IMG/VR virus record: IMGVR_UViG_3300009093_000822
Coordinates: 1-31,985 of that record
DNA from: a virus
DNA: 31,985 nucleotides
Strand: one strand, 5' to 3'
The position numbers were made by a program, and so were the translations under genes. Numbering within the stretch: position 1 is the stretch's first letter; each line of letters begins with the position of its first letter. The notes under the pieces were generated by a model that saw only the letters and a program-made list of their open reading frames with translations, made no database searches and was not told the DNA's origin. Shown here piece by piece: positions 11,687-31,985 of this stretch.

Positions 11687-13996
11687 ATGGCCACATCCGA
11701 CGACACACTTCGCTACGTTAAGTTCGACTACGATAGCCATTTGGACGCTATCATCCAGCGTACCCGGTCTCGTTATCCGGGTATTTGGAATGATTTTCAA
11801 ACTGGAAGTTTCGGACGTCTTCTCCTGGACGTCATTGCCTTCTCAACGTCCTCCACAGCCTTCCTTTTGAATAGAGCTGCGGCCGAGAATTTTATCTCGA
11901 CCATGACTTTGAGGGAATCTGCTGTGCGTGTAGGTTCGTTGGTCGGATATAAGCTGAGAGGACCTGCTCCTGCGACTGTTGCTTGCGACACTTCACTTTT
12001 CTCTGCCGCTGCTGCTGACGTTTTGATTTCGAAAGGAACGCCCGTTCGCACAGCGGACAACCTTCTGTCTTTCGAGGTCGACAAGGATTACACTATCTCA
12101 GTTGGCAACATCACTCCTCTTCGAACAGTTGTCCAGTTTAATCCCAACCAAACTGGAACGAGCATTCTTCAAACTCTGGTTCAGGTTTATGCCGGAAAGA
12201 ATTACGCTGATCTTCTTGACACGACGATCAATGTGAACGATTACGCCGAGGTCGGCCAGTTGTTCAGACAGACCAATCCTACTGGAACTGAATATCAAAT
12301 TTCCGATTTCGGTATCGGACCAAACGCCCCTGCCAAAAACCGAATTCTCTTTGCTCAAGTTTGGGCTGGAGCTGACGCGATCATCACAGCCGAAATTATC
12401 GACCGATCCATCAACTTAGTCCAAGGTCAAACGATCGTCGAACAATTTGTCACCTCAGCTTCCACTGTCAAGAATTTCACGATCAAACTTGGCCGCACTC
12501 CAGTAATCGACAACTCAGTCGAAATCAAAGTTAATGGTGAAGATTGGTCCCAAGTGGATTCTCTCTACACTACAGAATCGTCAGACAGCGTTTACGAAGT
12601 CACGACACTACCGTCTGGTTCGACTATCGTGGAATTCGGCGACGATACGTTTGGCCGAACGATTCCAACCGATGCCACACTGGTTGTCACATATCGCGTC
12701 GGTGGAGGAACGTCCGGAAACGTCCCATCTGGCGCGATTAATACGACCTTGGTCGGTTTGATTCCGTCTCTATCGAATCCAATCAACGTCAACGTCTCGA
12801 ACAGCCGACCAGGATTTGGCGGCCTTGACGCCGAAACCCTTGAAGAAGCCAGAGCAAACATTCCTGCTTTTACCCGAGCTGGTGGACGAGCTGTAACTCT
12901 CGACGATTATCAAGCGTTGGCGAGTGGTTTTTCTGATCCAAAGTTCGGTCAGATTCGGTACGCGTTGGCATTCACCCGGGCTGAAAATGACTTTCTCGAA
13001 CGGAATATCGTGGTTGTGACAGCTTGGACCAGCGGAGTCAATGGATCTCTCACCCCGGTTCGTGGATCTCTCAAAGCAGCTTTGCTCGCTTACCTTCAGG
13101 CGAAAGCAGTAGGAACCGACTACGTGATCCTGTCCGACGGCACAACCCGGCCATTACCGGTTTCAATCCGGTTCAAGGTACTTCCTGGGGTTGATGTCAA
13201 TGATGCCACTGACAGTCTTCTCGCTCAGATGCAAACCATCGTTGCCCAGCTTCGTCCTGGCAATGGACTGATCTTTTCTGATTTCGTTCGGTCATTGGAC
13301 GAGGTTCCTGGCATCGATTCTCTCAATATCGCCACGCCGATCAGCGACCTATATCCGTCTACTCAAGACGAGCTGTTCACCGCACCTGATCCTGAGTTCG
13401 TCTACAGTTTGGCTCTACAGTCGTCAAACACGACAGACAACTCGTACACGGCTTCCTTCCCTGTTTCTCCGCTGACTCCGTGGGCATTCCAATTGTTTCT
13501 TGGCGGATCAAAACTCGAAGTTCTGCCGGACGCCGTCCCGGGATTTGCCTTAGTTTCAGGCGGAAACCTGTCTACGACAGTTCAGTCTAAGGTCAATTTG
13601 CTCGCCGGCAGTGGCACGTTCTCGGTCGATGGTGTACCAGGGACTCTGACGATGAAACTGAATCCAGCAATCGGTTACGCTCGAGAACGCACGATTTCGA
13701 TCTACATTGGCTATCGAGCTGATGGGGATTCTCAACAGAAACGTCGTGAAATCCGTGCAGCTCTTCGTTCGTGGATTTCTGGATTCCCTCCTGGAGCTTC
13801 AATCTTTGCAGAATCTCAAGCGAATGTTGCCGCGTCTAACTCCAACGTTACTGACGTCGTGCTTAATGTGACCGGCGTGGTTGAGGTAACTCGCGTCTCG
13901 TTCGAAACTGCTTCCAATCCGTCTCCAAGAATTGATCTCGATCAGTTTGAACTGGCTCGATTCGACAACATCTACTTAAACAACATTTCGGATTGA
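11687..13996 (+). CDS. Baseplate J/gp6-like wedge protein
   Basis: The 769-aa protein has the pattern of the baseplate J/gp6 family of contractile-tail phages. The N-terminus contains DFQTGSFGRLLLDVIAF and LNRAAAENFISTMTLRESA, which resembles the helical region that contacts the tail tube hub. The core near residues 317-345 contains EFGDDTFGRTIP and YRVGGGTSGNVPSGAI, a family hallmark, followed at about 373-412 by GGLDAETLEEARANIPAF and RAVTLDDYQALA. The C-terminal 250 residues contain more beta-rich sequence and look phage-specific. The protein should form part of the baseplate wedge and shows that the phage has a contractile tail. An upstream GGAAG, 8 nt before the ATG, is one of the few Shine-Dalgarno-like sites here. 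The 3' end overlaps the convergent gene by 21 bp. Confidence 0.88.
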   Translation: MATSDDTLRYVKFDYDSHLDAIIQRTRSRYPGIWNDFQTGSFGRLLLDVIAFSTSSTAFLLNRAAAENFISTMTLRESAVRVGSLVGYKLRGPAPATVACDTSLFSAAAADVLISKGTPVRTADNLLSFEVDKDYTISVGNITPLRTVVQFNPNQTGTSILQTLVQVYAGKNYADLLDTTINVNDYAEVGQLFRQTNPTGTEYQISDFGIGPNAPAKNRILFAQVWAGADAIITAEIIDRSINLVQGQTIVEQFVTSASTVKNFTIKLGRTPVIDNSVEIKVNGEDWSQVDSLYTTESSDSVYEVTTLPSGSTIVEFGDDTFGRTIPTDATLVVTYRVGGGTSGNVPSGAINTTLVGLIPSLSNPINVNVSNSRPGFGGLDAETLEEARANIPAFTRAGGRAVTLDDYQALASGFSDPKFGQIRYALAFTRAENDFLERNIVVVTAWTSGVNGSLTPVRGSLKAALLAYLQAKAVGTDYVILSDGTTRPLPVSIRFKVLPGVDVNDATDSLLAQMQTIVAQLRPGNGLIFSDFVRSLDEVPGIDSLNIATPISDLYPSTQDELFTAPDPEFVYSLALQSSNTTDNSYTASFPVSPLTPWAFQLFLGGSKLEVLPDAVPGFALVSGGNLSTTVQSKVNLLAGSGTFSVDGVPGTLTMKLNPAIGYARERTISIYIGYRADGDSQQKRREIRAALRSWISGFPPGASIFAESQANVAASNSNVTDVVLNVTGVVEVTRVSFETASNPSPRIDLDQFELARFDNIYLNNISD

Positions 13997-14503
13997 TCGG
14001 CGGTACGATTTGACCACTTTTTTCATGAAGTTCGCATGAGCTCTCATGACTGGACTAAATGGAGATTTTCGTTGAGCAAGTAGTCCAGGGATGCGAAGAA
14101 ATCCATTCTTGACAAGGCTTTTGGGCGCCGACTTTTTGGGATAATGATAAGGAGTCTCATCCCGCATGGAATGATAATCTTGCCAGCGTCTTTTCCATGC
14201 TTTTTCGATAGCAGCTTGCTCTCTGAGATAGTCAAATCCGTTGCACCAGCAGTTGGTACCAGCGAATCCTGCCCATCCGTCGTTTCCTCCTGTTGAATAG
14301 GTGTTGGAAAGCGATATGGTTATCGTCGATGTATCTTGACTAGATGGTATTCCCATTCCTCCTATCATCGGTATGGGTCTGTCAAAGTCATCGACATGGC
14401 GCGTGTGAAGAAGCTGTTCGACCACTAACGATTTGTGGTAAGACTGGAGAAGAAGCTCGGTTAATAGGCTTCTTCGATCATCGAGGGTAACGATACTGAT
14501 CAC
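13976..14503 (-). CDS. Unknown protein, 175 aa
   Basis: The family is not recognised. The N-terminal half is Ser/Thr/Gly-rich with GGMGIPSSQDTSTITISL and NDGWAGFAGTNCWCNGF. The C-terminal half is basic (AWKRRWQDYHSMRDETPYHY ... KSYRRSIRNVV), which could bind nucleic acid or a capsid partner. It starts with GTG overlapping the TGA of the upstream glycosyltransferase gene (GTGA), so it is translationally coupled to that gene. The last 21 bp overlap the end of the baseplate gene on the other strand. No signal peptide or membrane segment is seen. Confidence 0.55.
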   Translation of the reverse strand: MISIVTLDDRRSLLTELLLQSYHKSLVVEQLLHTRHVDDFDRPIPMIGGMGIPSSQDTSTITISLSNTYSTGGNDGWAGFAGTNCWCNGFDYLREQAAIEKAWKRRWQDYHSMRDETPYHYPKKSAPKSLVKNGFLRIPGLLAQRKSPFSPVMRAHANFMKKVVKSYRRSIRNVV

Positions 14504-15756
14504 TTCAAAGCTGGAGCCGCTGGTTTTGTTTTTGCTGCGTTGTACGCATCCTCAACTTTTTTCATCTTCTCGACAACCTGTTCAGGAGTCACGGTAAGTA
14601 TCGGCTCGCACACGACTTGAGCAGATCCTCGTGGACATTTATGCCGAGGAAAGTCGTTGAACGCCTGACAAGCGGAGAATCTGCACGATTCTTTGTTCCA
14701 AATGGCAAGATCCATGTACTCCTTGTCGTACCCGAGTCGGTGCCACGGAGACACAGGACCCCAGATAGAAATCGCTGGAACTCGAAAAGCTTGGGCAACA
14801 TAGAGCATGCCTGAATCAAGAGTCACGGCAGCGACTGCCCGAGAGATCAATCCAGCAGCAACTCGAATTGGAGTTGCTCCTGTTAGATTGACCACGTTCG
14901 AACCGAGACCGTCGAGATGCTGCATGAACGTTCCATAAGACATGTCGGTTGCCGGTGCACGAGAACTGTTGGCTTGCCCGAGTACAACCACAGGGCGAGC
15001 TTTGGCAAGATTGGAAATGATATTCAACCATGTTTTGTACATGCCACTGCGAAGACTGGAATTGCTGGTCGGACACACGACGTAATAACCATTCCGACGA
15101 AGATCAATTTTCTTTTGAAGATAGATGAAATAGTACAGGGAATCCAAATCCTTGTAGTCCTGATTGGACAGTGCCATGCTTGGACGCTTGAATCGTGGAT
15201 CAACTGACTGAGGCTCAACTCCAATTTGCTTGTAGAGAGCATCATAACAGTTCATCTGATCCGGTTCGGAATCGTATTCCGTTACCGAGTCGATGAACCA
15301 GTGGTAGTGGTAAAGATGAAGAGCATCGTAGTCGATCGGACCCGCCAATGGCGTTGCATGCCTCAATGTAGGATGATGATCCAGGAGTTGACCACGATCG
15401 CACAGCGCGTAGATGTCGATGTTGCAACTATTACCAGAGATGTGCTTGAGATAGGACATCGGACCGGTCAAAAACATGTAGTCACCGAAACCACGATCTC
15501 GATGGCGCTCGATCAATATCGAGGCATTGGCCAAGTTTCGATTGGCCAGTAGAGGGTTGTGTAACCGGCTGTTTTTCAGTTCCGAAATCGTGTCGATCTT
15601 TTCGGCGACACTTTCAACTTGTCCCTTGTTGATGATGTACCGTCGATTCGGATTGAACATCCACGTCTCGGTTTCAGACCGATCCCAAAGGACTGGCTCT
15701 TTGAATGAAACAACAACCCACTCGGGTTGAGACGCTTTAGTTGGAAATGGTGGCAT
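14500..15756 (-). CDS. GT9/heptosyltransferase-like glycosyltransferase
   Basis: The C-terminal half of this 418-aa protein shows the GT-B donor-binding pattern of the GT9 family: VVNLTGATPIRVAAGLISRA, then AAVTLDSGMLYVAQAFRVPA and ISIWGPVSPWHRLGY. GT9 enzymes include ADP-heptose:LPS heptosyltransferases. The N-terminal half is less like classical members, and RHRDRGFGDYMFLTGP may correspond to the usual glycine-rich loop. A Cys cluster near the end (ESCRFSACQAF ... HKCPRG) resembles the one in related bacterial GT9 proteins. With the adenylyltransferase at 8365-8835 it suggests a heptose-type sugar, but the acceptor could be LPS, a virion protein or modified DNA. A 4-bp overlap couples it to the next gene downstream, and 2 bp separate it from the gene upstream. 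Confidence 0.72.
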   Translation of the reverse strand: MPPFPTKASQPEWVVVSFKEPVLWDRSETETWMFNPNRRYIINKGQVESVAEKIDTISELKNSRLHNPLLANRNLANASILIERHRDRGFGDYMFLTGPMSYLKHISGNSCNIDIYALCDRGQLLDHHPTLRHATPLAGPIDYDALHLYHYHWFIDSVTEYDSEPDQMNCYDALYKQIGVEPQSVDPRFKRPSMALSNQDYKDLDSLYYFIYLQKKIDLRRNGYYVVCPTSNSSLRSGMYKTWLNIISNLAKARPVVVLGQANSSRAPATDMSYGTFMQHLDGLGSNVVNLTGATPIRVAAGLISRAVAAVTLDSGMLYVAQAFRVPAISIWGPVSPWHRLGYDKEYMDLAIWNKESCRFSACQAFNDFPRHKCPRGSAQVVCEPILTVTPEQVVEKMKKVEDAYNAAKTKPAAPALK

Positions 15757-15758
15757 TG

Positions 15759-16469
15759 TTAAGGTTGTCCGATACCGCGGTTGCAGATGTGAGAATTAAA
15801 TTGCTGACGGTCATTCCAGTAGGAAAGTACCCCGTATGGAATTTTGGCAATGCCGTGCTTGTGAGCCAGGTAGCTGATTACGCTTTGATCGTGGCGATGC
15901 CCTCGAAATTCTGGGCGAGATGACCGAGACAACCCTTGAAAGGAAACGCCATCTTTGGAAATTTCCAGCCATTCGTTGAAAACTTCAACGGCTTTCTTGT
16001 TTTTGAAATCGAATCCCATGGCACAAGCCATCGTCTGGGTGATCGTTGCAGCTTCTTCGATGGAGCATCCAATCTTGGCTAAGCAATCATCGCTCGTCCA
16101 GACGTTTTCAGGACAACCAGGGTTTTCGAATAACAAAACTCCTCGGTCAGCTTTCTCCCAGAGTTCTTCCGGGTTTTTCACGAAGAAAATCGTTGAGTCG
16201 CACCACAAGACTTTCTTGTAGCCGGAGTCATGGGAGATCTCCATGATTCTCGGTTTGAAGCCGTAAGGAACCGTGTCGTGAGATGGCAAGTCCAAGATCG
16301 GACTGTTCAAGACGTTGTCATAGATCTCCACAGCCGGAAGTTCCGGCGCACACATGACAAAGTCCCCTTTAAACCCTGCTTTGATCGCACTGTCGATCAA
16401 GCGTGGAAGGGCACTTGGATAGTTTTCTCGACCTCGTTTGGCGAAACTGGCAATGGCGAAATCTCTCAT
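15759..16469 (-). CDS. GT-A type glycosyltransferase-like protein
   Basis: The 236-aa protein resembles small nucleotide-sugar transferases. An N-terminal strand-helix region ends in KPRIMEISHDSGYKKVLWCDST, where Asp91 lies in a DxT/DxD-like metal and sugar-nucleotide site. A typical C-terminal HDQSVISYLAHKHG follows. The length fits a single GT-A domain without a membrane anchor. It is the first gene of a three-gene minus-strand group (15759-16469, 14500-15756, 13976-14503) that starts 40 bp from the divergent kinase gene. Donor and acceptor are unknown. LPS, tail glycans and hydroxymethylated DNA are all possible acceptors. Confidence 0.62.
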   Translation of the reverse strand: MRDFAIASFAKRGRENYPSALPRLIDSAIKAGFKGDFVMCAPELPAVEIYDNVLNSPILDLPSHDTVPYGFKPRIMEISHDSGYKKVLWCDSTIFFVKNPEELWEKADRGVLLFENPGCPENVWTSDDCLAKIGCSIEEAATITQTMACAMGFDFKNKKAVEVFNEWLEISKDGVSFQGLSRSSRPEFRGHRHDQSVISYLAHKHGIAKIPYGVLSYWNDRQQFNSHICNRGIGQP

Positions 16470-16509
16470 TCGTCAAGACAGAACAGAGTCTATTCTTTGG
16501 AATGACCGC

Positions 16510-17580
16510 ATGACTCAACTCACTGGCATAGTCTGTATCGATGGAGCAAACGCGACCGGTAAGACCACTCTGGCAGAGGAACTGAGAAAAAGGCATGGAG
16601 CCATCATTCTTCATCAGACATACCGGTTCAGAAACAACATTTTCAACTACCATACGGCCGCTCTCCGGCTGGCTATTCGATTGGCTCAAAACAGGCTGGT
16701 AGTTCTTGACCGGCTCTGGATGTCTGAAGTTGTTTACGCTTCTGTGTACCGAGGAGGGACACCTTGGCCTCATCAAGGAAGGATGGTAGATCGAGTCCTT
16801 CAAAAGGCTTGTGCTGTGCAAGTGGTATGCATTGAGAGAAACAGAGAGCTCCTTCTTGAACGGTATCATCAAACTCGATCTCATCGAACCGACGCAGATG
16901 CTGAAAATAACGCTCGGGTTAATGACATGTATCAGAGAGTTGTCCCTCGCCAAATTCTTGACGCTAGAATCTGCGGGCCGAGAGCAAACTATCTGGATGA
17001 CATGGCCGAGTTGGCGGCGATCAAAAACCGAAAAGACGTTATAGCCCACGGGGTTTGGGATGGATCCACTGAATCGACTTGCGACTTAATTGAAAAGAAA
17101 TTGCTGGAGCTGCAGTCAACTCAGTTGAGAGACGCGTTGACGGTAGACAACTTTCTTGGCCACGTGTCTTCAGACACAAAATTTCTGATTGTTGGCGATA
17201 AACCAAACTTCAAACACAAATGGGCTTGGCCTTTTCACGAGTATGCTAACTCGTCTTTGTGGCTAACTCAGCAATTGCACCAGATTTTCTTCGACGAAAC
17301 TACAGCTCTATGGGTTAACGTAAACGAAGGAATGGGATGCGCAATCTGGAAACTGATAGACGAGTTTCCAAAGCTCATGAGCAGCATCAAAATAATTTCT
17401 CTTGGAAATCTCGCAGAGAAAACGCTGAGAGAGGAGTTCGATCTTCTATCGACTCACATTCCTCACCCGCAATACGGGCGCAGATTTATGACTGATGGGG
17501 TAGAGTATCGTGAACGGCTGCGAACCGCATTGGCTTTTGACCATCCTTCTTTTCTAGCACCTGATTCACACAATCCTTGA
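16510..17580 (+). CDS. P-loop nucleotide kinase fused to a uracil-DNA-glycosylase-like domain
   Basis: Residues 1-205 form a thymidylate/deoxynucleotide kinase-like domain: Walker A GANATGKTT at 12-20, a DRLW motif at 67-70 and VYASVYRGG. Residues 220-345 resemble the uracil-DNA glycosylase superfamily: FLIVGDKPN (active-site loop, 226-233), WPF, IISLGNLAEKTL near 296-306 and PHPQYG at 318-323, where a His-Pro motif is usual. The fusion suggests phosphorylation of a nucleotide or DNA base plus recognition or removal of an altered base. The ATG at 16510 is chosen over 16438, which would read through the divergent gene. It lies 799 bp before the hydroxymethylase gene; a hydroxymethyl-dCMP kinase role is one option. 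The last 95 bp overlap a convergent gene. The kinase half is secure and the second domain is a motif-level inference. Confidence 0.65.
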   Translation: MTQLTGIVCIDGANATGKTTLAEELRKRHGAIILHQTYRFRNNIFNYHTAALRLAIRLAQNRLVVLDRLWMSEVVYASVYRGGTPWPHQGRMVDRVLQKACAVQVVCIERNRELLLERYHQTRSHRTDADAENNARVNDMYQRVVPRQILDARICGPRANYLDDMAELAAIKNRKDVIAHGVWDGSTESTCDLIEKKLLELQSTQLRDALTVDNFLGHVSSDTKFLIVGDKPNFKHKWAWPFHEYANSSLWLTQQLHQIFFDETTALWVNVNEGMGCAIWKLIDEFPKLMSSIKIISLGNLAEKTLREEFDLLSTHIPHPQYGRRFMTDGVEYRERLRTALAFDHPSFLAPDSHNP

Positions 17581-17731
17581 GGCTTTCTCCGATGAAGGTC
17601 TCACCTTCGTAGGTTAATGCAACGCCGCTGCAGTTAACCGGAGCTATGGTGATTTCCCTGGCATTCACGTTGAGCCAGGAAAATCGAATGGTATCTTGAA
17701 CGAAGCGAAGATTTTCCGCGTCTTGTGTCAT
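17486..17731 (-). CDS. Unknown small protein, 81 aa
   Basis: The family is not recognised. The central segment (NAREITIAPVNCSGVALTYEG) looks like beta strands, followed by a helix (ESLKDCVNQVLEKKDG). The reading frame is clean and starts 6 bp after the upstream methyltransferase stop, so the two are probably cotranscribed. It overlaps the kinase-fusion gene by 95 bp at the 3' ends. If the last 30 codons were not translated the overlap would vanish, but I see no reason to move the stop. Coding status is probable, not certain. Confidence 0.5.
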   Translation of the reverse strand: MTQDAENLRFVQDTIRFSWLNVNAREITIAPVNCSGVALTYEGETFIGESLKDCVNQVLEKKDGQKPMRFAAVHDTLPHQS

Positions 17732-17737
17732 GCAAGG

Positions 17738-18337
17738 TTACCTACGCTTCGCGAAAATGTAGTTTTCGGAAGTCTCGTGTTCCAGACTGAACCCGAGTTG
17801 ACGTTGGAAAATATCACACAATTCCTTCTTGATGACGTTGGTGCCAACGGAATGTTCGACACAGGCGACCTTGCACTGGCTGAATGCTCCGAGCATATTT
17901 TGAACTAGATCGAGTGTGCCATCTTCGACGTCAAGCGTGATGAAGTCGAATGTCTCTCCATAGACGAGTTCACCTGGATGAACTGGAGGAAACCACACCG
18001 GTTGAAACTTAACTCCGATCGACTCCCACATCGGCGTGTAGCTCGCATTGGTTGTGGAAACAGCATCGCTGCACGTATACATTTTCGTGAGTCCTGCCTT
18101 CGGAGAAACAAGAGCTCCGACAATCTTGACCTTTGGATTTTGGCCGTGCAACTTAATCAAAGCAACCAGAGATTCAGGATTCGGCTCGACGACGATTCCT
18201 GACCATCCTTTTTCAAATAGGGCAAGGCTGTTTGAGAAGGTCTTCCCGTCGAAGGCACCGATGTCGAGCAGGCGTCCGACAGGTTGATCTTTGAGCAGGT
18301 CGAGGATAATCTTTTCTTCGTCGTTTTGGCTGTACAT
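17738..18337 (-). CDS. FkbM-family S-adenosylmethionine methyltransferase
   Basis: The N-terminus (SQNDEEKIILDLL), the SAM-binding motif I GRLLDIGAFDGKTFSN and the acidic loop GIVVEPNPESL match the FkbM methyltransferase family, which O-methylates sugars and other hydroxyls. ITLDVEDGTLDLV fits the conserved D-x-E strand. Length is 199 aa from the ATG at 18337; the GTG/ATG-type extension to 18397 would cross the divergent hydroxymethylase promoter region and is not favoured. It is 41 bp from the divergent hydroxymethylase gene and 6 bp before 17486-17731. Substrate candidates are glycans made by the neighbouring transferases or a sugar added to DNA. Confidence 0.75.
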   Translation of the reverse strand: MYSQNDEEKIILDLLKDQPVGRLLDIGAFDGKTFSNSLALFEKGWSGIVVEPNPESLVALIKLHGQNPKVKIVGALVSPKAGLTKMYTCSDAVSTTNASYTPMWESIGVKFQPVWFPPVHPGELVYGETFDFITLDVEDGTLDLVQNMLGAFSQCKVACVEHSVGTNVIKKELCDIFQRQLGFSLEHETSENYIFAKRR

Positions 18338-18378
18338 GGTTTTCGGTGAGTAAGTTCTTCTGCGGTAAGTAGAACACG

Positions 18379-19149
18379 ATGCGAATCTTCCCCACACCTA
18401 GTTCAGCATACCTGGGAGTCCTAACTGAGATCTTGAACTCGTCGGATTTCAAGGTCTCTCCGAGAGACAAAGCGATCAGGGAAAAGATCGCTTACCAGTT
18501 TACAGTGGAGAATCCAGATCCGAACCCAATCGTGACCAAGAGCGCTGCTCGGAACGAGATAATTGTCAAGTATCTTCAAAGTGAATTTGCTTTGTACGCC
18601 AGAGGGGAAACGATGGTTGAGGAATTCGCAAAAGCGAGTTCATTTTGGAACAGACTTTCAAATCCCGACGGATCGATCAATTCAGCCTATGGCCATCTGA
18701 TTTTCTACGACCGGTCGTGCGGAAATCCGCCGTTTGAGCTGGGAGACTCTGCAAAAAATGAAGATCCCACTGGCATGCGATCTCCGTGGGAATGGGCTCG
18801 CTTAGCTTTGCTCAGCGACAAAGACACTCGCCAAGCAATCATCAAGTTTCACAAAAGGTCTCACCTGTGGGTCGGCAATCGAGACCAAACATGCACGGTC
18901 TACGGGAATTTCTTAATTCGAGAAGATAAGCTGCATTTGATCATGCACATGAGATCGAATGATGCAGTTAAGGGTTTGGTCTACGACATGCCGTGGTTTT
19001 GTTATCTGCTCAAGAGGATGACTCTTGAGTTATTGGATAATGGATACAGAAATCTTCAAGTTGGAACGTACACCCACATTGCCGATTCCATGCACATCTA
19101 TGAAACCGACGTTCCAAAAGCTTGGGATATGATCGGAAAGTCAGAATAA
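18379..19149 (+). CDS. Thymidylate-synthase-family enzyme, predicted dCMP hydroxymethylase
   Basis: The 256-aa protein has FWNRLSNPDGSINSAYGHLI, then DQTCTVYGNFLIREDKL with the catalytic Cys172, and HMRSNDAVKGLVYDMPWF. This last segment aligns without gaps to E. coli ThyA QRSCDVFLGLPFNIASYAL. The Asn that thymidylate synthases use to recognise dUMP (ThyA Asn177) is Asp203 here, the substitution known from T4 dCMP hydroxymethylase. YTHIADSMHIYE ends the fold. The predicted product is 5-hydroxymethyl-dCMP, or 5-methyl-dCMP if it acts as a methylase. It would act in the cytoplasm with methylenetetrahydrofolate. It lies 1 bp before a tandem glycosyltransferase gene and near a kinase and dCMP deaminase, which fits a DNA modification pathway. 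A divergent ThyA remains the alternative. Confidence 0.8.
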   Translation: MRIFPTPSSAYLGVLTEILNSSDFKVSPRDKAIREKIAYQFTVENPDPNPIVTKSAARNEIIVKYLQSEFALYARGETMVEEFAKASSFWNRLSNPDGSINSAYGHLIFYDRSCGNPPFELGDSAKNEDPTGMRSPWEWARLALLSDKDTRQAIIKFHKRSHLWVGNRDQTCTVYGNFLIREDKLHLIMHMRSNDAVKGLVYDMPWFCYLLKRMTLELLDNGYRNLQVGTYTHIADSMHIYETDVPKAWDMIGKSE

Positions 19150-19150
19150 C

Positions 19151-20704
19151 ATGCTTCCAAAATTTACACTCTGCTACACGACAATCCGAGCGACTTCGGT
19201 CAAATCGGTCGTGTCAAAATGGATGTCGAAGGCGGTAAAACCAAACAACATTAGTTGGTCTTTTACCACGGATGACAACCAGCTCGCAACGAAAGAAGCG
19301 ATCAAACTAGTTTGCGGCGATCTTTCTGCAGGAGGAATCGACGTTGCGGCTGAAGTCGTAACTAACCTTCCTGGAACTTGTGTTAAGGGATGGAATCTCG
19401 CTGTGGAGGCTGCGAGAAGGGCCGCCATCATCGGAGACATCATCATCGGCGTCGCCGACGACTTTGATCCTCCAGTTGGATGGGATGAAGTCTTGATCGG
19501 CGTTGCGGAAGACGAGTGGTGGAAGAAAGATCGAGTCGTCCACGTGGGCGATGGCTACAACCCAGACATCTTTACGCTGGCAATTATCACAGCAAAACGT
19601 CTTAACCGCTATGGCTATCTCTTCTATCCCGGGTACGAGTCTATGTTTTGCGACACCGAATTCACGGTCGTTGCTCACAAAGACGGGGCTGTCATCGAAG
19701 CGACTTATGCTACGTTCGAACATCTGCATCCAGACTGTGGCAAGAGGCCACGAGATGCTGCCGATCTCGTTCATTCGTCCTCGGCAAGATACAAGGTCGG
19801 AGAAATGTTATTCAACTACCGACGATCAATCGGATTCCCTATCGATGATGGCCCTGCTTTTGACGACACCAAGGTAACTTCAAAGGATCTTGCCGTCCAT
19901 ATTCAGGCCACGAAAAACGACTTTTGTCTGCTTGAAGTTTGTCTGCGATTGTACGAGGAAGGAATTCGAGCTTTCTTTTTTTACGTCCCTAACCAGTACT
20001 GGTCCGGTCGGATAGTTCCTCGAGAGGAATACGCTGAAGTCCTTGAGGTTGCCCAATCGTTAAAGGCAACGTATCCTGACATTGTCGTGCACGAAAATCA
20101 GTTTGACATTCAACCTCATCGGATCGCCGGTCGTTCACGTATCCAAGTTGAAACTGCCGCTCGTAACGAGGCAATGACTTGGATCAAGTCTCATGGTTTC
20201 AAACACATCGTCATCGCTGATGGCGACGAACTGTGGCGTCGAGGATTATTGGCGGAACTTCTCGACGTGATTAACGATTTCAAGCCGATTTGTGTCTACA
20301 CCGGCATGGTACCAGTTGTAGGATTGCCTGGTTATCCAATCGAAGGAGCCGTCGACAAGGCATCCATTTACGTCAGCAAGGACGCAGAGTTTCAAGAATG
20401 TCGAGGAACTTTCGGCATGAAGTACGAGCTTCAAGGCCACAAGATCTTTCACTTCACGGCCACGCGTCGGACTATGGAAGAGATAATCAAAAAGAACCGG
20501 GAATCAGGCCATTACGATGACCCGAACTACGACTTTGAAGGTTGGATCAAAAACACGCTGCCTAACATTCGCCCTGGCTTAAAAAACGTGCATATGTACA
20601 TTCCCTATAACCCATGGAAAGAGGTTCGGGAATGGTCGATCGATGAAGCAAAAGAAATCCCTCCATCGCTGTACCAATATCTCGCTGTTCCAGCACTTGC
20701 ATGA
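19151..20704 (+). CDS. Tandem two-domain GT-A glycosyltransferase-like protein
   Basis: The 517-aa protein appears to have two GT2-like domains. The first (about 1-230) starts FTLCYTTIRATSV and carries ADDFDPP at 102-108. The second (about 255-480) has a diphosphate-sugar site ADGDELWRR with D357-G-D359. The C-terminal region KIFHFTATRRTMEEIIKKN fits a transferase helix. Each DxD-like site would hold a metal and sugar nucleotide, so two sugars could be added in sequence. The start codon is 1 bp after the hydroxymethylase stop and the end overlaps the next gene by 4 bp, so expression is tightly linked to that enzyme. Glycosylation of hydroxymethylcytosine in DNA is an attractive but unproven role; LPS or virion glycosylation is the alternative. 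Confidence 0.68.
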   Translation: MLPKFTLCYTTIRATSVKSVVSKWMSKAVKPNNISWSFTTDDNQLATKEAIKLVCGDLSAGGIDVAAEVVTNLPGTCVKGWNLAVEAARRAAIIGDIIIGVADDFDPPVGWDEVLIGVAEDEWWKKDRVVHVGDGYNPDIFTLAIITAKRLNRYGYLFYPGYESMFCDTEFTVVAHKDGAVIEATYATFEHLHPDCGKRPRDAADLVHSSSARYKVGEMLFNYRRSIGFPIDDGPAFDDTKVTSKDLAVHIQATKNDFCLLEVCLRLYEEGIRAFFFYVPNQYWSGRIVPREEYAEVLEVAQSLKATYPDIVVHENQFDIQPHRIAGRSRIQVETAARNEAMTWIKSHGFKHIVIADGDELWRRGLLAELLDVINDFKPICVYTGMVPVVGLPGYPIEGAVDKASIYVSKDAEFQECRGTFGMKYELQGHKIFHFTATRRTMEEIIKKNRESGHYDDPNYDFEGWIKNTLPNIRPGLKNVHMYIPYNPWKEVREWSIDEAKEIPPSLYQYLAVPALA

Positions 20705-21072: not shown

Positions 21073-21530
21073 AATTAAAGAGAAGAAAAAAGGTTAACCT
21101 CGGTATCATTGGCATTGGAACCATCAGGGCCAGCATGCCTCTTGCAAATGAGGTGGACCTTGGGAAAGGTTTAAACCCATGGGGATTTCAACGAAAACTG
21201 AAACCTCAAGACACGGTCGGCATGGTAAACGAAGAAATAGCCATGCTCAAGTATGTCGAACAGCATCAACCAGTGAAACTCTGGGTCGTTTTGAATTACC
21301 TGGGAAGGTTTGCTGGAAAACACAAGTACCAGACACGTTCTCAACGGCAGAGACTGATGCCTCTGTCCACTCGTCTTTGCAGAGAAGGCAAGCTAAAGAG
21401 GAACCGGTCTCCGAACACTCTTTCTCTTGGACCAAACTACAGACCCTCAAGACCTGACCTTGCCGAATCACAACCGGATTTCGGTGGAGGTGTATGCGAT
21501 GTGTCTGGCATGGGTCGCATCGTTGCGTAG
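21069..21530 (+). CDS. Unknown basic protein with a possible winged-helix segment
   Basis: This 153-aa protein begins MKLKRRKKVNL. Its middle (LKYVEQHQPVKLWVVLNYLG ... STRLCREGKLKRN) resembles a winged-helix DNA-binding fold, in which a recognition helix is followed by REGKLKR. The ATG overlaps the previous stop by 4 bp. The last 104 bp overlap the dCMP deaminase in another frame. Either this C-terminus is real or the true deaminase start lies at 21484 or 21496. No other motif is recognised. Confidence 0.5.
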   Translation: MKLKRRKKVNLGIIGIGTIRASMPLANEVDLGKGLNPWGFQRKLKPQDTVGMVNEEIAMLKYVEQHQPVKLWVVLNYLGRFAGKHKYQTRSQRQRLMPLSTRLCREGKLKRNRSPNTLSLGPNYRPSRPDLAESQPDFGGGVCDVSGMGRIVA

Positions 21531-21933
21531 TGAAGATCCTTTTCACAAGGTCGGGTGCGCCGCTCTGAATTCCTCAAACAGGGTTATCGCGACCGGATAC
21601 AACGGACTCAAACCGGGACAGAAGCTTTCCGATGCCGAATGGATGGACCGAGAAGGGAGACTCAAGCATGTCATTCATGCCGAAAGAAACGCTCTCAGTC
21701 TTTGCCAACCAGGCGAAATCAAAACTCTGGCCGTGACGACTCTTCCGTGCTCTCAATGCGCTCAAGCCATTATCGCAGCCGGCGTAAAGATTATCCTTTA
21801 TGGCAAACCCTATCACAGAGACTCCTCGTCGATCGAAATCTTCGCGCAGCACGGCATCGAAACAAAACTCATTGCCCTTGACGACGCCAAACGAACCGTT
21901 CTCGATACCGTTAACCGAGAACTCGGGAATTAG
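21427..21933 (+). CDS. Deoxycytidylate (dCMP) deaminase
   Basis: The zinc-binding motifs of the cytidine/deoxycytidylate deaminase superfamily are present: HAERNA (His84, with catalytic Glu86) and TLPCSQCAQAI (Cys108, Cys111). The segment RISVEVYAMCLAWVASLRS followed by DPFHKVGCAAL is the standard N-terminal part of dCMP deaminases. The enzyme makes dUMP from dCMP for dTTP synthesis and balances dCTP pools. In a phage that also makes hydroxymethyl-dCMP it would drain unmodified dCMP. TTG at 21427 is used because conserved residues start right after it; GTG 21484 and ATG 21496 would cut part of the conserved N-terminus. It overlaps the upstream gene by 104 bp. Confidence 0.85.
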   Translation: MDQTTDPQDLTLPNHNRISVEVYAMCLAWVASLRSEDPFHKVGCAALNSSNRVIATGYNGLKPGQKLSDAEWMDREGRLKHVIHAERNALSLCQPGEIKTLAVTTLPCSQCAQAIIAAGVKIILYGKPYHRDSSSIEIFAQHGIETKLIALDDAKRTVLDTVNRELGN

Positions 21934-28466: not shown

Positions 28467-28991
28467 ATGGATTTTCAAGGATACGAAGATTGGGGCCAAT
28501 TTGAGCACCCATACGACTGCGAACTTCTTGAGGCATACTCAGGAGTTTCCGCGGTTTCCTGGTATGGCAGCATCGAACGCCAGCTCGTCGGAATGGAGTC
28601 GACCTACAAGTCTGCTCGCAACGACAACTATGCAACCAAGATCCACCAGTTTCTTCAGACGTGGAGAGACAACGAGATCACTGGTTCAATCAACCGAGAG
28701 ACAATTGAAGTCCTGAAGTCGGCTACGGAACAACTGGCAGTTGATCCTTGGAGACTCGCCAACTATTTTTCCAATCTGCGAGACCAACTGCGCAAGCTTC
28801 TTGCTTCCATGGAAGAGCTTCCTCTCGGAGACATGGTTCAAGATGGTCCTCGCAAGCGTAAGTCCGCTCCTCCGAACTCGTTTGGTGCTCGAGGTGCGCC
28901 TCCTGCTCCCGGTCAACCGGCGGCCGATGGAGCCGCACCAGAAGGCGGCGCTGAAGGCGCACCTGCACCAGCTGCTCCTCCGGCACAATGA
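28467..28991 (+). CDS. Unknown protein with Gly/Ala/Pro-rich C-terminus, 174 aa
   Basis: From the ATG at 28467 the first 130 residues are charged and helical (EHPYDCELLEAYSGVSAVSW; TIEVLKSATEQLAVDPWRLA). After a basic patch (GPRKRKSAPP) the C-terminus is low-complexity Gly/Ala/Pro (GAEGAPAPAAPPAQ). The start is 1 bp after the previous stop. The last 79 bp overlap a convergent gene, whose own C-terminus is also Gly/Ala/Pro-rich because it reads the complement. A virion or scaffolding role is possible but not shown. Confidence 0.6.
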   Translation: MDFQGYEDWGQFEHPYDCELLEAYSGVSAVSWYGSIERQLVGMESTYKSARNDNYATKIHQFLQTWRDNEITGSINRETIEVLKSATEQLAVDPWRLANYFSNLRDQLRKLLASMEELPLGDMVQDGPRKRKSAPPNSFGARGAPPAPGQPAADGAAPEGGAEGAPAPAAPPAQ

Positions 28992-29293
28992 ATTTGAGCA
29001 TCGGCTCGTTCTAGCCGATCGTATTCAGAAGCTAGCATCCCGCCAGCTTTTCGGATGTTCGTCATGTAGTTTCCAGATGGTTTGAAACCCTCTGGTTCGA
29101 AAGGCCAAAGTGGAAGAATGATTGCTGTAGCCTCTTCGATGGTGTGTTTCTTTTGAAGTAAAACGTTCACCATGACATAGCAGTTCGCACCTTCGGCGAT
29201 TTCGCCATGAACGTGCAGATCGTCATGACCAGGAGTCCAGCCATGTTCAATTTGACGTTTCTGTTCCTGTTCGAAAATTTGGATGCCGCTCAT
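28913..29293 (-). CDS. Conserved phage protein of unknown function, 126 aa
   Basis: The pattern QKRQIEHGWTPGHDDLHVHG, PLWPFEPEGFKPSG and IRKAGGMLASEYDRLERAD matches, from memory, a family frequent in phage genomes with a conserved GWTxxHDD and a final AGxxLxxExxR helix. The function is unknown. The last 27 residues (GGAAGAGAPSAPPSGAAPSA) are low-complexity and antisense to the end of the plus-strand gene. It lies 22 bp after the PLP-enzyme gene on the same strand and is probably cotranscribed with it. Confidence 0.65.
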   Translation of the reverse strand: MSGIQIFEQEQKRQIEHGWTPGHDDLHVHGEIAEGANCYVMVNVLLQKKHTIEEATAIILPLWPFEPEGFKPSGNYMTNIRKAGGMLASEYDRLERADAQIHCAGGAAGAGAPSAPPSGAAPSAAG

Positions 29294-29315: not shown

Positions 29316-30233
29316 TCAGCCTAGTCTCTGGGCTGCAGGTTTCAATGGAGAAAGATCGGATTTATCTGTCCAGTCTCTTGCCGACTTCGTGAGACGAATG
29401 AGCTCCGCGGTATGAGTTCCTTTAATTTCGCCTGCAACGTTCCAGAACCAAGCTCCTTCTGAGGCGCCGTGCGTGTGCATAAATTCCCAGGCTTTTGCGT
29501 CGTAAGACCGAATGCAAGGAAATGTCGGCTCAATGTCGCTCGGGTCGGTGAAAGCTTTTGGATGACTGAGAACCGTCGCTCGACCAGATTCTCCGGCTTT
29601 CATGTTCCTCGCAACAGCAACGCCGAAAAACTTGGCGTTCGGCCAACCGACTTGGAGACCTCGACTCAGCACTCCAGTTGATAGCGCAGACCAAACCTCT
29701 TTTGGTTCTCCGTGAGTCTTAGTGATCCGATCGCAGACATTGACAATCGCCGCTGTGACCAAAGGATGTTTGAGTCCGAGTGGAATGAACATGCCACCGG
29801 TCTCAACTGCAAACTGTTTGGCGTAGCCGTTCAACACTGGCATGGCCGCTATTCGAACGAATCTTAGCTGAGCTCCGAGTTCAAGAGCGAGAGCCTGATG
29901 CTCAGATATTTCTTTTGAAGCAGGAGCAAAGAGAGTCAATTTCTTGCCGTACTTTTTGCAGATGCGAGCCAAAGAAATTCCAGCGTACCCGACTCGAGGA
30001 GCGACGTAGACGAAGTGGTCTGCCGATTGTTTTTGAACGAACAAGTCGGCAAATCGGCCTTTACTTCCGACCTCGATCAAATCATCTCGAACGACGTTGA
30101 ATCCATTGCACTTCTGAATCGTGGGTTCTCCAAACGGATCAACCCATCCTTCAGCGAGAAGGAGATAGTCTTCTCGTGTTGTCCCTTGAAGATCTTTGTT
30201 GATTCCGTCGATAACGTGTGTGTCGTGACTCAT
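29316..30233 (-). CDS. Fold-type-II PLP-dependent enzyme-like protein
   Basis: The 305-aa protein has GFNVVRDDLIEVGSKGR with a candidate Schiff-base Lys58, followed by a Rossmann-like region (YVAPRVGYAGISLARICKKY, then GKKLTLFAPA). STGVLSRGLQ looks like the glycine-rich loop that binds the PLP phosphate. YDAKAWEF and GAWFWNVAG follow in the C-terminal part. This suits the tryptophan-synthase-beta/threonine-dehydratase superfamily, in a form I recall from several phages. It overlaps the upstream pyrophosphorylase-like gene by 4 bp (ATGA), so they form one operon. In phages, PLP enzymes have been implicated in attaching or trimming amino-acid-derived groups on DNA bases. Here that is inference. 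Confidence 0.68.
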   Translation of the reverse strand: MSHDTHVIDGINKDLQGTTREDYLLLAEGWVDPFGEPTIQKCNGFNVVRDDLIEVGSKGRFADLFVQKQSADHFVYVAPRVGYAGISLARICKKYGKKLTLFAPASKEISEHQALALELGAQLRFVRIAAMPVLNGYAKQFAVETGGMFIPLGLKHPLVTAAIVNVCDRITKTHGEPKEVWSALSTGVLSRGLQVGWPNAKFFGVAVARNMKAGESGRATVLSHPKAFTDPSDIEPTFPCIRSYDAKAWEFMHTHGASEGAWFWNVAGEIKGTHTAELIRLTKSARDWTDKSDLSPLKPAAQRLG

Positions 30234-31985
30234 GCTGGTTGACCTTCAAGAATCCACTTCTGGCGACCTTTTGGATGATTTTTCACAAGACTGTTGTGGA
30301 AGACCTTTCTCGGATCGAGATGACGATAGCTTCCCAGCTTGTTGTCGGGAATGTGGTTTTCGATGTATCGAATGTAGTCGCATGCGACGTCTTCCACGTC
30401 GTATGGCCGAGCAGTTTGGCTTGACAGAATGCCTTGTACGTTTCGGCATACTCGAGGAAGAATGTCAGGGGTTGGTTGACCGAGAGCTTTTCGATCTTCC
30501 ACGAATTGAAGCATGAAGGGTTCCACGTCCGCACACATCGATTCCATGATAAGGTCGTATCCTACTTCCCTTTTGCCGTCAATTTCTCCGACTAACTCAA
30601 GACACTCTTGACAGTTTTTGCCATAATAGCAATGAGACGCTGGGTTGATCAAATAAGGAAAATACTCAGCCGTATCCATTACAAAGGCGGTAAGCACGAA
30701 CGCATACCTCTTCAATCCCATCGAACTTTGAAGATCCAAAACGTAGTCAACTCCATCTCGAATTCCTAGGTGATGACCAGGAGGAGCGTTTTCTAGGTAT
30801 TTAGCGTACGAGATGGCGATCTTGTCTGCGTGTTCGCAGAGATATTCGATGCCGCCTCGGGTGTAGGGAGGATTCGGTTTGTTAAACGGAGGAATTTGGT
30901 TACCGATCGAAGTGAAGATGGCTTTATTTTCTCGGTCCCACTTGCGAACGACTTCCTTAGCTAAGTCGAACCCTCCGAGTTCGAGAGCGTCTGCGAGTTC
31001 GAAGACGATGGTGTTTCGGTAACCATGGTCTTTCTCAAACGAAGCGCCTGAGCCAGTAATTCGATGAACCAGGTGTATGAATTGCCACTGGGCGTGGTCA
31101 AAGCTGTAGGCTTTCTTTGTTCGAGCTTCTCGGTATTTGATCGGTTCGGGTCCATAGTGAAGGTCTTCCAGTACTTTGGAGAAACCAGCATACCGACGAT
31201 TGACCGTGTCGTAGATCGTCACGGCGTTCATCAGGTCATCATCGATCGGTTCAAACGAAAGACCGAGATTTCGGCGCTGAAGCTGGATAGCTTTTTTGTA
31301 GTACTCGATAAAATCGGCGTAGTACTGAGTTTTTCCAAAAACAGTCTGCGAAGGAGCCCGAACGACTTTCGGTTTCGGCACTTTCGGCACCTCATCCCCT
31401 TCAGGTTCTTCGTCTTCTGCATCAGGCACGTTGACTCGAACCGGTCTCACTTCCGGATAGAAATTGATCAAAGTCGTGTCGAGATTGTATCGGTACCACT
31501 CAGGAGAAAGATGAACTGACTTTGGACGTTCCATGACGTCGAAGCTGAGCTTCCCGTTGTCTAACAGGCAGTCAGGCCACGTCCAGACGCTAATTCCAGC
31601 CTCGCCATCGAGTTGTTTGAGTCCTGCATTGAAGAGTGTTCGAATCTTTTCTCGTTCGGCCCAGGTGCCATAAAACGGCTGTCCCTTGTAGTACCCAGTT
31701 TTGGGTAGTTTCCGACTTTCATCTTCGATTGGAAGCAGAGAAATAATTTCAACCTTGATTCCAAGATCTCTTAAATCTTTCGCTTGGCGGATGTACCGAG
31801 CAACCAACTGGTCGGTCGACTCCATTGGATTAATTTGGCGATGAAGGTGGAAGCGAAGATCGATGTTACCGAAGTAAATCGTGATGATCTTGTAGTCCTG
31901 AGGATTGACGATAAATTCTTTCAATCCTGTGTTCAGCACACCGAAGAGAGTTTTGCCGTCATGACGGCGAATTTCAGCGTCGGGA
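30230..31985 (-). CDS. SGNH-like domain fused to an alpha-glutamyl/putrescinyl thymine pyrophosphorylase-like domain (5' end outside window)
   Basis: The frame is open to the window edge, so the GTG at 31939 is probably internal; about 584 residues are visible. The N-terminal part has IYFGNIDLRFHLHRQ, PKTGYYKGQPF and MERPKSVHLSPEWY. This fits an SGNH/GDSL-like hydrolase in which GN(I)D and the later D/H motif form the active site. After a charged Pro-rich linker (EPEGDEVPKVPKPKVV), the C-terminal 370 residues contain VNRRYAGFSKVL, HRITGSGASFEKDHGYRN and DVEDVACDYIRYIENHIP. These resemble the DNA-glycosylase-derived pyrophosphorylases that act on phosphorylated hydroxymethyl bases in phage DNA. 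The assignment is from remembered motifs and should be tested. It overlaps the PLP-enzyme gene by 4 bp. Confidence 0.5.
   Translation of the reverse strand, partial: PDAEIRRHDGKTLFGVLNTGLKEFIVNPQDYKIITIYFGNIDLRFHLHRQINPMESTDQLVARYIRQAKDLRDLGIKVEIISLLPIEDESRKLPKTGYYKGQPFYGTWAEREKIRTLFNAGLKQLDGEAGISVWTWPDCLLDNGKLSFDVMERPKSVHLSPEWYRYNLDTTLINFYPEVRPVRVNVPDAEDEEPEGDEVPKVPKPKVVRAPSQTVFGKTQYYADFIEYYKKAIQLQRRNLGLSFEPIDDDLMNAVTIYDTVNRRYAGFSKVLEDLHYGPEPIKYREARTKKAYSFDHAQWQFIHLVHRITGSGASFEKDHGYRNTIVFELADALELGGFDLAKEVVRKWDRENKAIFTSIGNQIPPFNKPNPPYTRGGIEYLCEHADKIAISYAKYLENAPPGHHLGIRDGVDYVLDLQSSMGLKRYAFVLTAFVMDTAEYFPYLINPASHCYYGKNCQECLELVGEIDGKREVGYDLIMESMCADVEPFMLQFVEDRKALGQPTPDILPRVCRNVQGILSSQTARPYDVEDVACDYIRYIENHIPDNKLGSYRHLDPRKVFHNSLVKNHPKGRQKWILEGQPA

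Follow-up and report, generated by a model that had tools for sequence, protein, structure and literature searches.

What does a phage do to its DNA with a gene that joins an SGNH/GDSL-fold domain to a helical domain and overlaps a gene for a pyridoxal phosphate (PLP) enzyme, and on which base do the products act? The question is raised by the right end of the IMG/VR virus record IMGVR_UViG_3300009093_000822, a stretch of 31,985 bases that was analysed as a whole and is called the window here. The fusion gene is referred to as SGNH-CT, CT being the helical domain, and both genes run leftward. We assign a probability of roughly 0.55 to the reading that they are part of an amino-acid-type hypermodification cassette, which would act post-replicatively on 5-hydroxymethylcytosine (hmC). 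This reading is the best supported because of the fold match of CT, the family that the PLP enzyme has in common with the cassette of M6-like phages, and the gene neighbourhood. A preliminary description of the same DNA had proposed a base hypermodification step that adds an amino-acid-derived group; that proposal is retained, with cytosine now the predicted base and the gene pairing found to be conserved.

The SGNH-CT frame is open over 584 codons and runs off the window edge, and thus the gene does not end at position 31985, where the preliminary description had closed it. Contig L002 is identical to the window end over 705 bases and supplies the missing 186 N-terminal residues (MAKSERAI...), including the GDSH serine motif. 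The whole protein is about 770 amino acids (aa) long and consists of an SGNH/GDSL-fold esterase-like domain and CT. A relative with the same architecture and 68% identity is found on a 225-kb contig (L003) as a single 786-aa protein; there the PLP homologue is placed elsewhere in the genome and not beside SGNH-CT. The fusion was found only in the window phage and in L003. In the window, the overlap between the SGNH-CT and PLP genes is exactly 4 bp (ATGA), as had been described, and both motifs quoted earlier from the fusion protein are present in the 584-codon frame. A small protein encoded at window positions 28913-29293 aligns with many long PHROGs without assigned function over their C-terminal part, and its homologue adjoins SGNH-CT in L003.

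Conserved blocks and a predicted fold place the SGNH half in the SGNH/GDSL hydrolase superfamily. The blocks GDSH, GxIDxRxHxxR and S-x-H are invariant in two alignments of phage proteins (A2 and A3, with 28 and 26 members); the window sequence has the last two and the GDSH serine block is in L002. The SGNH half matches phrog_13881 (E=6.7e-39). The AlphaFold (AF2) model has a pLDDT of 80, and in the PDB its fold is matched by GDSL-like lipases, acetyl-xylan esterases and other enzymes of the SGNH type (TM by target at most ~0.67), the O-acetyltransferase PatB also among them. Thus the SGNH-like domain of the preliminary description is borne out by fold search and by the invariant blocks, whereas among Pfam families Lipase_GDSL stayed under its cut-off (E=0.008-0.18).

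The PLP enzyme provides a link to known hypermodification systems. The thymidine cassette of phages M6 and SN1 comprises a hydroxymethylase, a 5-hydroxymethyldeoxyuridine (5-hmdU) DNA kinase, an amino acid:DNA transferase, a radical S-adenosylmethionine (SAM) protein and a PLP enzyme. The SN1 cassette is that of M6 (PMC9476957). The window enzyme matches phrog_7093 (E=8.8e-42), to which the PLP enzyme of the M6-like phage SN1 also belongs, and hhalign of the two PLP families gives E=2.7e-18 over 224 columns. PF00291 was matched at E=2.6e-8, its 34.0 bits falling short of the cut-off of 35, and both Lys58 and a Ser185-Thr186-Gly187 loop are conserved. The profile, the lysine and the phosphate loop point to membership in the phrog_7093 sub-family of PALP fold-type II enzymes, in agreement with the fold type given earlier. 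Because this enzyme shares its family with the M6-like cassette enzyme, PLP pairing is what would be expected of a hypermodification cassette. Erythrobacter phage ZS04 and Microcystis phage Mae-JY30 (L062:2326-4764, L063:6378-8696) also have homologues of the window enzyme, placed within or next to a DNA methyltransferase whose N-terminus is ParB-like; in ZS04 the PLP domain sits between methylase parts.

The fold of CT was compared with viral predicted structures in BFVD, so that predicted models stand on both sides of the comparison. Ranks 1 to 10 are taken by unnamed homologues, proteins named amino acid:DNA transferase, and 5-hmdU DNA kinase/helical proteins, the last from SP10, phiRSL1 and phiW-14; from rank 11 the probability is below 0.1. 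The matches named amino acid:DNA transferase have E=2e-14 (29% identity) and E=5e-5 (10% identity, TM 0.48/0.55). By eye, the CT motif EDVxCD recalls VETxLC[DK][FW] of annotated amino acid:DNA transferases. A gene of about 350 aa, here called X (e.g., L056:8948-10000), is a CT relative by profile (hhalign E=4e-5) and has a similar EDxxC motif. The resemblance to pyrophosphorylases that had been proposed for the C-terminal 370 residues therefore stands at the level of fold, where structural similarity was found, and does not stand in Pfam or in profile alignment.

The base is indicated by the linked hydroxymethylase, which the thymidylate-synthase fold and the base-selecting Asp place among the deoxycytidylate (dCMP)/CMP hydroxymethylases. 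Asp occupies this site in every scored hydroxymethylase linked to SGNH or CT, including 40 of 40 further copies, and Asn in all M6-like copies. When clustered at 70% identity, 25 Asp clusters stand against 11 Asn clusters (Fisher p=1.7e-9, the clusters being not fully independent). Since the linked enzyme is of dCMP type in every scored case, the base acted on is very probably hmC. In an eLife metagenome study, thymidylate-synthase homologues with Asp-177 were associated with contigs of modified, deamination-resistant cytosine (PMC8670742). Genes that appear sugar-related surround the window hydroxymethylase (13976-20704): a GT9-like gene at 14500-15756, an FkbM methyltransferase at 17738-18397 and a weakly glycosyltransferase-like gene at 19151-20704.

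The window kinase is homologous to the kinase of a related cassette, that of L207 (E=3e-19). It was considered as a clear 5-hmdU-type DNA kinase and rejected, as it scores as thymidylate (dTMP)-kinase-like. We infer that the linked kinase is a hydroxymethyl-dCMP (hm-dCMP) kinase; in T4 this job is done by gp1. The C-terminal extension of the window kinase (codons ~190-380 of 16438-17580) recalls, by eye, uracil-DNA-glycosylase-like sequences.

To what extent are these genes found together? A scan of IMG/VR with the CT alignment gave at least 574 stretches that encode CT. Neighbours within ~7 kb were counted on 103 CT contigs, many of which are fragments, and consist of SGNH (77 contigs), PLP (75), the dCMP-type hydroxymethylase (51), X (46), dCMP deaminase (35) and the dTMP-kinase-like gene (28). 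Where both flanks of CT extend to 4 kb or more, the proportions are 40/44 for SGNH and 36/44 for PLP, and the PLP gene is on the CT strand in 74 of its 75 copies. A common gene order is deaminase - SGNH - CT - PLP - kinase - hydroxymethylase, and in many contigs the hydroxymethylase adjoins the kinase and PLP genes. X and the kinase never share a contig (0 shared; 46 and 28 contigs), which may merely reflect two phage lineages. The SGNH-CT-PLP neighbourhood thus recurs, and its PLP family is shared with the M6-like cassette; the pairing is not the unusual one that it had first seemed. By homology, the window phage has the full cassette set in a dispersed form, as its kinase is homologous to the cassette kinase and a deaminase is present too. 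CT was absent from phage isolates in three tblastn queries of 50,697 records, and CT queries of the genome collection gave only seven contigs, all from metagenome bins. The gene set is widespread, almost only in uncultivated phages. Coordinates of the window features are in Table 1.

Table 1. Window features of the SGNH-CT/PLP locus and of the genes linked to it
Feature	Position	Strand	Basis or remark
SGNH-CT fusion gene, 3' 584 codons	30230..31985	-	First 186 codons beyond the window edge, carried by contig L002
SGNH/GDSL-fold domain, C-terminal part (GNID-x-R-x-H block, SVHLSPEWY block)	31475..31985	-	Alignments A2/A3, AF2 model, phrog_13881
Invariant His codon of SGNH triad (His344, L002 numbering)	31511..31513	-	Alignments
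CT domain, amino acid:DNA transferase / 5-hmdU-kinase-helical-like (region modelled)	30233..31384	-	Alignments A1/A4, AF2 pLDDT 80, BFVD fold matches
CT motif HR[IVL]TGS; H, R, G, S invariant in 48 homologues	31049..31066	-	Alignment
CT motif EDVxCD; E, D, C, D invariant in 48 homologues	30377..30394	-	Alignment
PALP (fold-type II) PLP enzyme, 305 aa	29316..30233	-	PF00291, phrog_7093; ATGA overlap with SGNH-CT
Lys58 codon, candidate PLP Schiff-base lysine, at least 95% conserved, common to SN1	30060..30062	-	Alignment
Thymidylate-synthase-family hydroxymethylase, dCMP type	18379..19149	+	PF00303; best PDB matches CMP 5-hydroxymethylase and T4 dCMP hydroxymethylase
Asp203 codon, equivalent of T4 gp42 / E. 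coli ThyA-177 base-selecting position	18985..18987	+	Alignment
dTMP-kinase-like P-loop kinase, start codon uncertain	16438..17580	+	Homologue of kinase between PLP and hydroxymethylase in related cassettes
dCMP deaminase, frequent cassette neighbour	21427..21933	+	PF00383 E=2.9e-17

The following order of steps is consistent with these genes. The phage dCMP hydroxymethylase would produce hm-dCMP, which the dTMP-kinase-like enzyme probably phosphorylates, and polymerisation would then give DNA with hmC. After replication, SGNH-CT and the PLP enzyme would turn hmC into a hypermodified cytosine. CT, as a glycosylase-derived helical domain, would flip the base and replace or extend the hydroxymethyl group with an amino acid, and the PLP enzyme would then tailor the added amino acid, e.g., by decarboxylation. 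Transfer or hydrolysis of an acyl or ester group on the same side chain is the probable role of the SGNH domain, which may otherwise activate the hydroxymethyl group.

Several observations weigh against an amino-acid-type hypermodification of hmC. The modified base is predicted from genes, and the family assignment of CT is based on a predicted fold. None of 48 CT members matched PF18724 (amino acid:DNA transferase, ADDT, also named aGPT-PPlase2) or PF18723 (5-hmdU DNA kinase helical domain, HMUDK_hel, also named aGPT-PPlase1) at E<=1, and a fold search of CT against the PDB gave nothing significant. Comparison of CT by hhalign with ADDT and HMUDK_hel alignments made for this analysis was not significant (E=0.03-0.5, 48 sequences included), in a test of low power, as the two known families score only E=0.008-0.018 against each other. 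No 5-hmdU-type DNA kinase or PF18723 match was found in the CT/PLP genomes searched, many of which are fragmentary records, which leaves the cassette with no recognised counterpart to activation as it occurs in the thymine pathway. In the window itself, the PLP and SGNH-CT genes are on the opposite strand from the hydroxymethylase and kinase, ~10 kb apart.

It should be added that a reversed-column control of the hhalign comparison was equally poor, that a Pfam scan of the window CT at E<=10 gave chance matches only, without PF18724 or PF18723, that a profile search of CT against PDB sequences gave no match, and that 16 related genomes gave no PF18724 match. CT lacks the PF18723 match, and the linked kinase (in 28 of the 103 CT contigs) the kinase type, that would go with HMUDK_hel. 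Since the fold search led to these two families while the profile comparison is not significant and the known families barely detect each other, CT likely has the transferase/kinase-helical fold, and could belong to either sub-family, the amino acid:DNA transferases or the helical partners of DNA kinases.

The SGNH domain has a wider distribution than CT. Among isolates it is present in 38 Aeromonas records, two of Stenotrophomonas phage IME13 and three of Tenacibaculum phages. The same 38 genome-scale Aeromonas records carry a close homologue of gene 42, and the nine other records with such a homologue are 5-7-kb pieces. SGNH thus marks exactly the Aeromonas phages of the 44RR, 31 and 25 types, which have gene 42 and an undescribed hmC modification. 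The fate of hm-dCMP in phages 44RR, 31 and 25 is not known, and glucosyltransferases are lacking (review, PMC2993671). ORF233c of Aeromonas phage 44RR2.8t belongs to the same SGNH family as the window domain (42.5% identity over 167 residues), but its helical domain is PF18723-like (E=7e-4); SGNH in 44RR-type phages is fused to this 5-hmdU-kinase-helical-like domain. Aeromonas phage 25 (L158:1776-5047) has consecutive genes for a uridine diphosphate (UDP)-galactopyranose mutase (PF03275 E=5e-54), an uncharacterised 358-aa protein and SGNH; their place is taken in 44RR by a sodium:solute symporter gene and the SGNH-helical fusion.

A second SGNH neighbourhood is present in T4-like contigs (L017:3729-11682; also L013, L020, L028 and L040). 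Its genes encode a dCMP hydroxymethylase, a dCMP-deaminase-like protein, myo-inositol-1-phosphate synthase (PF01658 E=8e-9), a HAD-like protein, a 5-hmdU-kinase-helical-like protein (PF18723 E=1e-12), SGNH and a C5-cytosine methylase (PF00145 E=1.5e-15); neither CT nor PLP was seen in these contigs. This neighbourhood may possibly be for an inositol-type hmC modification. As SGNH occurs in more contexts than CT, with the inositol-phosphate synthase set and with the UDP-galactopyranose mutase set, it may perform a step common to several hmC modifications.

Such a distribution suggests an alternative, which we regard as possible though unlikely, whereby SGNH is itself the hmC-modifying enzyme, e.g., by O-acylating the hydroxymethyl group or one added later, CT is a DNA-reading, base-flipping partner and the PLP enzyme supplies or trims the substrate. 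Such a partnership with the P-loop part is the role ascribed to the helical domain in the 5-hmdU DNA kinase. Fusions of SGNH are of two separate kinds, with CT in the window phage and L003 and with the helical-like domain in 44RR; SGNH is present in gene-42 phages of the 44RR and phage 25 types that show no CT or PLP match, and its family keeps the catalytic motifs and has esterases and PatB as fold matches. However, the PLP enzyme of the M6-like family, present in 75/103 CT contigs, points to amino-acid chemistry, and CT has invariant polar residues such as a catalytic domain would be expected to show.

A sugar or polyol modification of hmC, with SGNH trimming or acylating the sugar and the PLP enzyme making an amino sugar, is improbable. 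UDP-galactopyranose mutase and glycosyltransferase genes do follow PLP in L056, the mutase is ahead of SGNH in Aeromonas phage 25, an inositol-phosphate synthase accompanies the second SGNH clade, and a weakly glycosyltransferase-like gene adjoins the window hydroxymethylase; but the conserved neighbours in most CT contigs include no recurrent sugar gene, and PALP enzymes are not of the usual sugar aminotransferase fold. It is very improbable that the cassette belongs to the known thymine (5-hmdU) hypermodification pathway, with a separate function for the dCMP hydroxymethylase, despite the likeness of the PLP family and CT fold to the M6-like cassette, as all scored hydroxymethylases near CT or SGNH have the dCMP-type Asp, the hydroxymethylase adjoins kinase and PLP genes in many contigs, the CT/PLP genomes searched (many of them fragments) gave no PF18723 and no PF18724 match, and the pathway's combination of an Asn hydroxymethylase with a 5-hmdU DNA kinase was not found.

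Amino-acid-type hypermodification of hmC would have partial parallels in known systems. To our knowledge, amino-acid-type hypermodification is established only on thymine, and the cassette is predicted to be the cytosine counterpart of thymidine hypermodification, with a conserved SGNH-CT/PLP linkage. Like Pseudomonas phage M6 and Sphaerotilus phage SN1, it has a thymidylate-synthase-family hydroxymethylase, a PLP enzyme of the same PHROG and a helical domain that is glycosylase-derived and has the transferase/kinase-helical fold. Unlike them, its hydroxymethylase is of dCMP type (deoxyuridylate, dUMP, type in M6/SN1), its kinase is of the dTMP-kinase type, PF18723 and PF18724 are not matched, no radical SAM protein was seen, and it includes an SGNH domain, which is not annotated in the SN1 cassette. 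As in T4 (gp42 and glucosyltransferases) and in RB69-type arabinosyl-hmC, hm-dCMP would be made at the nucleotide level by a dCMP hydroxymethylase, but the cassette yielded no glucosyl or arabinosyl transferase of the T4 type and the decorating genes would be SGNH-CT and PLP. The 5-hydroxymethylcytosine carbamoyltransferase system (MetaGPA, PMC8670742) likewise comes from phage metagenomes. Its dCMP-type hydroxymethylase has a deaminase and a pyrophosphohydrolase nearby, and a dedicated enzyme decorates hmC; that enzyme is a different one, and amino-acid rather than carbamoyl chemistry is predicted for the CT cassette.

A broader proposal, which we put forward tentatively and as doubtful, is that in a family of phage systems SGNH enzymes and glycosylase-derived base-flipping domains together activate and hypermodify hmC, with SGNH replacing the P-loop DNA kinase of the thymine pathway. 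Several new cytosine bases would then arise through modular partners, CT and PLP serving for amino acids and the sets with inositol-phosphate synthase or UDP-galactopyranose mutase for polyols and sugars. If the amino-acid-type reading is true, this chemistry would be extended to a second base, cytosine, in at least 574 IMG/VR stretches with CT. It would also be a candidate answer to how the hmC of the Aeromonas phages 44RR, 31 and 25, isolates that carry the SGNH component, is processed, and would be of relevance to type IV restriction and to cytosine-based epigenetic enzymology.

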